Of a stretch of 64,000 nucleotides of DNA, positions 21,860 through 22,822 are shown one piece after another (within the stretch, counting starts at the first letter, position 1; every line of letters begins with the position of its first letter). Where the stretch lies: the NCBI GenBank assembly GCA_017451695.1, contig JAFTNW010000014.1:1-64000 (forward strand), written 5' to 3'. Both the position numbers and the translations under genes were made by a program. The notes under the pieces were generated by a model. That model saw only the letters and a list, made by a program, of their open reading frames with translations, was not told the DNA's origin and made no database searches. The stretch comes from Bacteroidaceae bacterium. GTDB taxonomy: Bacteria > Bacteroidota > Bacteroidia > Bacteroidales > Bacteroidaceae.

Positions 21860-22450
21860 TTATGAAAATAGAAGTTCAACCATCTGGGGGCGAAGGAACG
21901 ACTTGAAGAAAGCCTCAAACTCACCCTCACCGAAGTTCACCTTATACGAGCCATCGGCCGGAGCAATGGAAACAGATGTCTTTACACCATTAACCTGCTT
22001 AATCTCCACACCCTTGTCGAGCAAGCCTTTTGCCTTTGCGGCAAAGAACGCTTTTAACTCGGCAGCCTCGGTTGCAGATATCACAAGAGGCTCGTTTGCG
22101 CTCCAACGAGAAACTATATCAACGATGAGCGATTTGAGAGCATCGCCACCGACTGCCTCTTTAACAGCAGCCTTAACAACAGTATCGGTGATGATTGTAG
22201 CAGCCTCGGACTTGATTGCACCCACGGCCTGTGCGCCATAGAGTTTGAGTTCCGAACGAGTGTTTGCGTTCAGTTCCTCGGCAGCCTTTGTGGCGGCAGC
22301 CACCAATGAGTCGGCCTTTGCCTGTGCCTCTTTTACTATCGCTTCGGCTTTGGCCTGCGCTTCAGCAATCAAGCGGTCGGCCTCGGCCTTTCCTTTCTCC
22401 ACGCCCTCGGCATAGATTTTTTCGGTTAGTTCTTGAATTTTATTTTCCAT
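21860..22450 (-). CDS. ntpE: V/A-type ATPase subunit E (peripheral stalk)
   Basis: Peripheral-stalk subunit of 196 residues from the ATG at 22450 (MENKIQELTEKIYAEGVEKG). A TTG nine codons upstream in the same frame is less likely. Residues 1-75 form an Ala/Glu/Lys-rich helix with coiled-coil pattern (KAEADRLIAEAQAKAEAIV), the part that normally pairs with subunit G/H; the C-terminal half is the globular head that binds the B subunit. No gene for G/H is found, so the partner of the coiled coil is not visible here. It is the first gene of the operon. Confidence 0.9.
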   Translation of the reverse strand: MENKIQELTEKIYAEGVEKGKAEADRLIAEAQAKAEAIVKEAQAKADSLVAAATKAAEELNANTRSELKLYGAQAVGAIKSEAATIITDTVVKAAVKEAVGGDALKSLIVDIVSRWSANEPLVISATEAAELKAFFAAKAKGLLDKGVEIKQVNGVKTSVSIAPADGSYKVNFGEGEFEAFFKSFLRPQMVELLFS

Positions 22451-22654
22451 ATATTTTTTGTATTGATATTTATTCAAAAAAACAAAATCGCAGGGCGCAC
22501 GCGCAGCGATCGGCAGAGCACATTCCCGCCACTTTAATTATTTTACAAAAATAATATATTTTATTGTTATTTCTATTATTATTTGGCAAGAATTGTACCA
22601 AAAACCGATTTTTCACACTGTTAGCCTCTAAAATGTAAAAGCAGGGTGCAATAT

Positions 22655-22785
22655 ACAAAACGAGAGTGCCGCTTTTCACAAAGCAGCACTCCCTACATTT
22701 ACTAAACAACTAAGAAAAAACTATACTATCATAACTGATATTCATCTCTTGTATATACGCGTCGTGAAATACCTCACACGTTTAT
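22655..22785 (-). ncRNA. Candidate small RNA or attenuating leader
   Basis: A promoter with both boxes (see 22792-22822) would start a transcript near 22785. About 95 nt later a 12-bp hairpin with one mismatch (22664-22675 with 22680-22691) is followed by TCGTTTTGT on the minus strand, which fits an intrinsic terminator. Between them lie small stems, including TATCA-GTTA-TGATA (about 22727-22740), and an 11-codon ORF (ATG at 22745, TAG ending 22710). The unit could be an independent RNA of about 130 nt, or the leader of the V-ATPase operon with termination control. It could also end read-through from elsewhere. I could not match it by eye to a named RNA family. Confidence 0.45.
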
Positions 22786-22791
22786 TCACTG

Positions 22792-22822
22792 CAAATATAT
22801 TCTGCTTTTTTCAAGCGACAAA
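22792..22822 (-). promoter_or_regulatory. Bacteroidota-type promoter upstream of the V-ATPase operon
   Basis: On the minus strand TTTG (22819-22822 read in reverse) is followed after 19 nt by TATATTTG (22792-22799), a full match to the TTTG-N19..21-TAnnTTTG consensus. It lies about 340 bp before subunit E and directly upstream of the candidate small RNA. Confidence 0.65.

Follow-up and report, generated by a model that had tools for sequence, protein, structure and literature searches.

A promoter-to-terminator unit near a V-ATPase operon represents a small RNA family of ruminant-gut Bacteroidaceae with a predicted lipoprotein mRNA target

To our knowledge, few small RNAs (sRNAs) have been described in the Bacteroidota, with targets available only for GibS, FopS and a few others. 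The promoter type of this phylum is characterised by a -33/-7 layout. The sRNA GibS of Bacteroides thetaiotaomicron possesses a long single-stranded seed, which was demonstrated experimentally to pair with translation initiation regions (PMC7366714). The FopS family of the same species is represented by 14 copies (12-15 per genome) of approximately 65-70 nt, which are associated with the protein RbpB and have SusC-type transporter targets; the same -33/-7 promoter layout is named for this family, and the block of initiation by pairing has been shown experimentally in B. thetaiotaomicron (PMC11697453).

The sRNA gene described here is located on the minus strand at positions 22655-22789 of the analysed 64,000-nt stretch of Bacteroidaceae DNA (hereafter the window), a span which extends from the predicted transcription start to the end of a T-rich tail and which was derived from the -7 box and the terminator, a layout that is kept in the genus. 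A minus-strand promoter, as proposed in a first-pass annotation of this DNA, is indeed present, consisting of the -33 box TTTG (22822-22819) and, 19 nt beyond it, the -7 box TATATTTG (22799-22792). The terminator-like hairpin reported in the same annotation was likewise confirmed at 22693-22662 (minus strand), where GGGAGTGCTGCTTT-GTGA-AAAGCGGCACTCTC forms a 14 bp stem with a GTGA loop, directly followed by the tail GTTTTGT (22655-22661, minus strand); this stem is the longest among 18 terminator-like sites in the 13 kb that were scanned. Transcription would start approximately 7 nt past the -7 box and end at the hairpin near 22656, yielding an RNA of about 135 nt (94-143 nt in relatives, with boundaries set by the same rule), which folds 3.5 standard deviations below its dinucleotide shuffles. 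Between promoter and terminator, folding of individual RNAs places a 5' structured region of a long type at 22751-22787 (minus strand), followed by the conserved core TATGATAGTATAGTTTTTTCTTAGTTGTTTAGTAAATGTAGG (22692-22733, minus strand), which is near-invariant in the alignment, complementary to the target leaders discussed below, and proposed to act as the seed. The 11-codon ORF ATGAATATCAGTTATGATAGTATAGTTTTTTCTTAG, which had also been noted in this interval, exists at 22745-22710 on the minus strand, and is judged to be incidental because the corresponding frame lacks a start codon in most of the other aligned copies; a translated 11-codon leader peptide was rejected on the same basis.

A lack of conservation outside this strain, which the first-pass annotation had named as grounds for refuting its proposal, was not observed: a DNA search identified the 3' part of the unit in 34 of the 44 genomes of the genus, and a covariance model built from 24 copies returned the same 34 genomes, with 37 copies in total. 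Most genomes, including that of the window, harbour a single copy, while three (G002, G027 and G031) possess two. The AU-rich core of approximately 40 nt, AATGATAGTATAGTTTTTTCTTAGTTGTTTAGTAAATGTTGG, hardly varies among the aligned copies. Almost every copy carries a -33 box, TTTG or TTG, at an unchanged distance, and a TAnnTTTG -7 box is located upstream of all but two. Both exceptions belong to genome G002 (loci L005 and L061), the promoters of which have possibly decayed or are differently controlled.

Beyond the genus, the exact pattern TTCTTAGTTGTTTAGTRAA was found in 38 stretches among 84,980 species genomes; 35 of these are in Bacteroidaceae or Bacteroidales metagenome-assembled genomes (MAGs), most of them labelled by ruminant gut site and with contigs that match those of the genus, while the remaining three, in unrelated records, presumably represent chance. 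Among 301 genomes of the family, matches of the model outside the genus were weak (E 1e-4 to 1e-3) and without a recognisable core. Such matches were obtained in nine of the other-genus genomes sampled and exhibit a similar promoter-linker-terminator layout, and no homology is claimed for these units because the layout is similar but the core is not recognisable. For example, units of the same layout in genus g6 (L115:1440-1570 and L118:1500-1630) and genus g15 (L113:1450-1575 and L119:1390-1570) consist of a TAnnTTTG box, an AU-rich linker with TTAGTT-like runs, and a terminator with a TTGTGAAA or TTCGTGAGAA loop, and may, judging from this layout, encode analogous or distantly related sRNAs. 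A search of phage records for copies of the sRNA returned none. Within the range tested, this sRNA family is restricted to a single ruminant-gut genus of the Bacteroidaceae, and it is real and new, being previously unlisted as far as Rfam and the present searches go.

Alignment of the relatives also bore out the covarying stems that the first-pass annotation had looked to as support, since compensatory changes were observed at nine of the 14 terminator pairs across 24 copies. The interval between promoter and core contains either a longer structured region, as in the window, or a short hairpin with stems that vary in sequence from genome to genome (e.g., GTGCTT/AAGCAC, GCTCTC/GAGAGT or ACTCTC/GGGAGT). 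RNAalifold did not recover this 5' hairpin from a MAFFT alignment, because the stems differ in both sequence and length, but it is present in single-sequence folds. By the same single-sequence folding, the predicted unpaired fraction is approximately 70% for the 3' half of the core and approximately 45% for its 5' half. In many copies of the short type (e.g., L009, L018, L019 and L029), the terminator arm recurs in inverted orientation (AAGAAGTACCCCTTT) just 3' of the terminator, where it may terminate convergent transcription.

The genes upstream of the sRNA vary, encompassing DUF6057, an MFS transporter, carB and others, and these differing neighbourhoods, together with the two copies present in three genomes, could indicate a mobile or repeated DNA element instead of an RNA gene. 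Such an element is extremely improbable, as the unit is almost always single-copy and occurs in few syntenic neighbourhoods (after DUF6057, MFS or carB), lacks terminal repeats and a transposase, and retains a conserved promoter and a conserved terminator with covariation. The sRNA gene itself is thus well supported by comparative sequence data.

The nearest gene downstream in the window, which is a neighbour outside the unit, encodes a V-ATPase subunit E-like protein (minus strand, 21860-22453); it was delineated as an ORF and its identity is taken from its position in the operon, while a Pfam search of the protein returned a sub-threshold DivIVA match alone. The first-pass annotation had placed the terminator approximately 200 bp from subunit E, which is accurate, and had left a choice between a small RNA and a leader that attenuates the ATPase operon. 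The former is upheld by the genus-wide conservation, the promoter boxes, the covarying terminator and the varied neighbourhoods described above. The latter, i.e., a 5' leader that starts at 22789 and permits conditional readthrough of the terminator into the V-ATPase operon, would be in keeping with the position of the unit on the same strand about 200 bp upstream of subunit E, both here and at 15 other loci, but is very unlikely for three reasons. Firstly, subunit E follows the sRNA within approximately 650 bp in 16 of 30 resolvable copies, whereas other genes do so in the other 14. Secondly, the operon has -7 boxes of its own: in the window, TATTTTTG (22546-22553, minus strand) is located downstream of the sRNA terminator, with no canonical -33 box seen, and each of the 16 genomes checked, eight with and eight without an adjoining sRNA, has TAnnTTTG boxes in the 260 nt that precede subunit E. 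Thirdly, the 11-codon ORF is not conserved. As a general function, attenuation is refuted already by the copies that stand elsewhere. A promoter belonging to the V-ATPase operon itself is considered likely but not proved, because these -7 boxes lack canonical -33 partners. The adjacency of sRNA and V-ATPase genes is best seen as an ancestral neighbourhood, and on these comparative grounds the sRNA is an independent gene and no switch for the neighbouring ATPase genes.

Searches of the window against Rfam returned no match at the gathering score, and Bacteroidales-1 and 6S-Flavo, which had been put forward as orphan RNAs of similar layout, were absent among matches up to E = 10. The sRNA stretch alone produced only weak matches, the best of which were driven mainly by the terminator. 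The Bacteroides sRNAs MasB/BTnc201 (RF04177), BTnc231 (RF04180) and BTnc049 (RF04179) possess the same kind of terminator, and the present sRNA scores 15.8-23.5 bits against these models, mostly through the terminator, versus gathering scores of 80-105. With 21.3 bits versus a gathering score of 115, it is also not a sequence member of the GibS family (RF04182). It does resemble GibS (~145 nt) in being intergenic, with a long conserved single-stranded seed, an intrinsic terminator and one copy per genome; however, GibS is transcribed from a non-canonical PM2 promoter and carries its seed at the very 5' end (PMC7366714), whereas in the present sRNA the promoter is canonical and the seed is preceded by a 5' hairpin, and its predicted targets differ from those of GibS. 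With the FopS family it shares a canonical sigma-ABfr promoter, an extended seed, and pairing, predicted here and shown there, with the starts of surface-protein mRNAs (PMC11697453). It is distinguished from FopS by its copy number (one here and at most two in relatives), its length of 94-143 nt, the absence of any detected RRM_1 protein, and its predicted lipoprotein target. FopS was set apart by its description, while GibS, which shares R1 with FopS, was compared through Rfam only.

Taken together with the target predictions below, the unit probably encodes an independently transcribed, trans-acting antisense sRNA that blocks translation initiation, with a PepSY-like gene as its main target and a capsid-like gene as a second target in seven genomes; from these features we infer its expression, its repressive effect and the direction of repression. 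The unit displays the features of the trans-acting base-pairing class, i.e., its own promoter, an intrinsic terminator, no conserved ORF, a location apart from its target, conservation as a gene and, by computation, an accessible, conserved seed with complementarity to a target mRNA that is itself conserved. The RNA would comprise a protecting 5' hairpin, a long and mostly single-stranded AU-rich seed of approximately 40 nt, and the terminator. By analogy with GibS and FopS, the seed would pair over 20-35 nt with the start region of an mRNA and thereby block initiation, the main conserved target being the second gene of a tandem pair encoding PepSY-like (PF11396) lipoproteins and the second, in seven genomes including the present one, a prophage gene that resembles major capsid genes. 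In kind, such an sRNA is ordinary, while its predicted target is unusually clear and the prophage match is intriguing.

To find targets, the core was reverse-complemented and searched for in all 44 genomes, with as many as three mismatches tolerated per 20 nt. Matches outside the sRNA were, in total, not much more numerous than those of a reversed control; several were located exactly at start codons, six of them ahead of a single gene family, which encodes a small PepSY-like lipoprotein (PF11396) and whose target member is apparently the second gene of a tandem PepSY-like pair. Across the 44 genomes (approximately 97 Mb), 41 exact occurrences of the 14-mer complement ACTAAACAACTAAG were counted; 36 of these are the sRNA itself, and three of the other five are in leaders of this family. 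PepSY-like genes were also taken from 39 genomes by protein homology and not by complementarity. For the leader region of these genes (-90 to +24), pairing with the core averages -25.1 kcal/mol across 38 leaders, compared to approximately -15 for other genes, as duplex energies that leave out the cost of opening local structure. Values of -25 or below were obtained for 21 of the 38 leaders, the 'background' genes that reached this level being PepSY orthologues within the background set, and the best other gene was at -24.7. None of 300 dinucleotide-shuffled cores, whose average was -16.2 (sd 1.2), attained the mean of the real core. The longest case, that of G032, involves 34 predicted pairs, with CCAACAUUUAC running through to the AUG. 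In the genome of the window, where the PepSY-like gene and the sRNA are on separate contigs (C9 versus C48), the leader is moderate at -22.8, which is in approximately the top 2% of 353 starts (sampled from 20 stretches that cover about 18% of this genome). Four PepSY-like leaders (L240, L241, L242 and L266) contain at least two tandem copies of an ACTAA motif, as if they offered multiple seed sites.

The richness in A of the leaders of this genus makes such matches more likely, an effect for which the shuffling controls. This composition, along with AACAACTATGAAAAA-form matches at the starts of several unrelated secreted-protein genes, would also suit a shared, translation-aiding leader motif of the genus, in which case the RNA would be real and its targets other or many. 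The energy distributions described above make such a motif unlikely, since half of the PepSY leaders are at or below a level that no other leader reaches, and the exact 14-mer is very seldom seen other than in the sRNA. By computation, the complementarity between the core and PepSY leaders, which extends across the translation start, is beyond chance.

The predicted sites are stronger in genomes with a canonical sRNA (mean -28.4, n = 24) than in those without (mean -19.9, n = 10; p = 4e-4, with genomes treated as independent), and p = 0.002 was obtained when the six genomes found by complementarity were left out. Weak sites (mean -18.9) are also present in four genomes in which the core of the sRNA is missing its TGTTGG end. 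Weak sites accompany a canonical sRNA in G010, G015, G007 and G030, while absence of the sRNA is uncertain in incomplete MAGs, and G021, which is 62% complete, has a strong site. The PepSY protein tree has no power on this correlation because only two independent pairs are present on well-supported branches. As a lead only to the role of the PepSY-like lipoprotein, the comparable tandem locus BT0922-0923 of B. thetaiotaomicron responds to iron and colitis (PMC10434189).

The near-invariance of the core over approximately 40 nt, which is longer than most seeds, and its AU-richness might instead reflect a protein-binding site, through which the RNA would sequester a protein in the manner of CsrB or 6S with no antisense pairing; RbpB, for example, binds single-stranded parts of FopS and GibS (PMC11697453). 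However, the 44 genomes of the genus yielded no RRM_1 (PF00076) protein, while a Bacteroides control was positive, and a protein-binding site would not be expected to show specific complementarity to the start region of one gene family, leaving sequestration distinctly unlikely. Given the RRM_1 result, an RbpB-type partner is not evident, and proteins of this type seem, from these profile searches, to be missing from the genus. RbpB being the one known global sRNA-binding protein, and not found in the lineage of this sRNA, antisense action as proposed here would suggest that long antisense seeds may function without it.

A near-complete complement of the core, AACCAAGAAAAACUAUACUAUU-AUG, is located ahead of a gene encoding a 321-residue protein in seven genomes, i.e., in the present genome (G000 contig 35, L323:10975-11937, minus strand) and at L311, L312, L314, L316, L318 and L319; the reversed pattern returned no match. 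The pattern search was designed after the first case, which had emerged when the sRNA itself was used as a BLAST query (E ~8e-4). A head maturation protease (PHROGs) is encoded upstream of this gene. The designation 'capsid-like' is putative because the 321-residue protein has no match in Pfam or PHROGs and its structural model is of low confidence (pLDDT 51), the best structural match being to phage major capsid proteins (E 1.3e-5). The capsid-like leaders of the seven genomes pair with the core at -32.8 to -36.6, and in the background sample of the present genome the leader ranks first of the 353 starts (-28.4; mean -14.7, sd 3.2).

The seven prophages are closely related, mostly >90% identical, and thus amount to approximately one event. 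A second copy of the capsid-like gene, in G024, lacks the long match (-23.2), as do prophages at 40-44% identity (-10 to -15), while among IMG/VR relatives the match was observed only in the closest (-32.8) and in one at 65% identity (-25.2). The exact core complement has eight matches in viral contigs, none with visible start-site context. Since the prophages represent about one event and the long match is missing from more distant relatives, these pairings are suggestive of an action of the sRNA on the prophage without establishing it. A broader proposal, which we regard as doubtful, is that a chromosomal host sRNA pairs almost completely across the start codon of the capsid mRNA of a resident prophage lineage and thereby silences it, alongside a housekeeping lipoprotein target and without Hfq-like or RbpB-type partners, as a form of RNA-level prophage control in Bacteroidota. 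A precedent is provided by CisR of Vibrio cholerae, a chromosomally encoded sRNA which is reported to inhibit a phage-encoded mRNA (PMC13250501); unlike the present sRNA, CisR is described there as 3'UTR-derived and directed at a filamentous phage, and its sequence is unrelated. If true, the capsid match would mean that a tailed prophage is acted upon by a chromosomal sRNA, which is rarely seen.

Further core complements were observed at two other kinds of site. At L192-L194, core matches are located within or across the coding sequence of a gene whose product starts MNTNSRTKK, and in G003 the exact 14-mer complement (L212:1501-1514) is present ahead of an AraC-like regulator gene, within its short leader, making this gene a possible further target.
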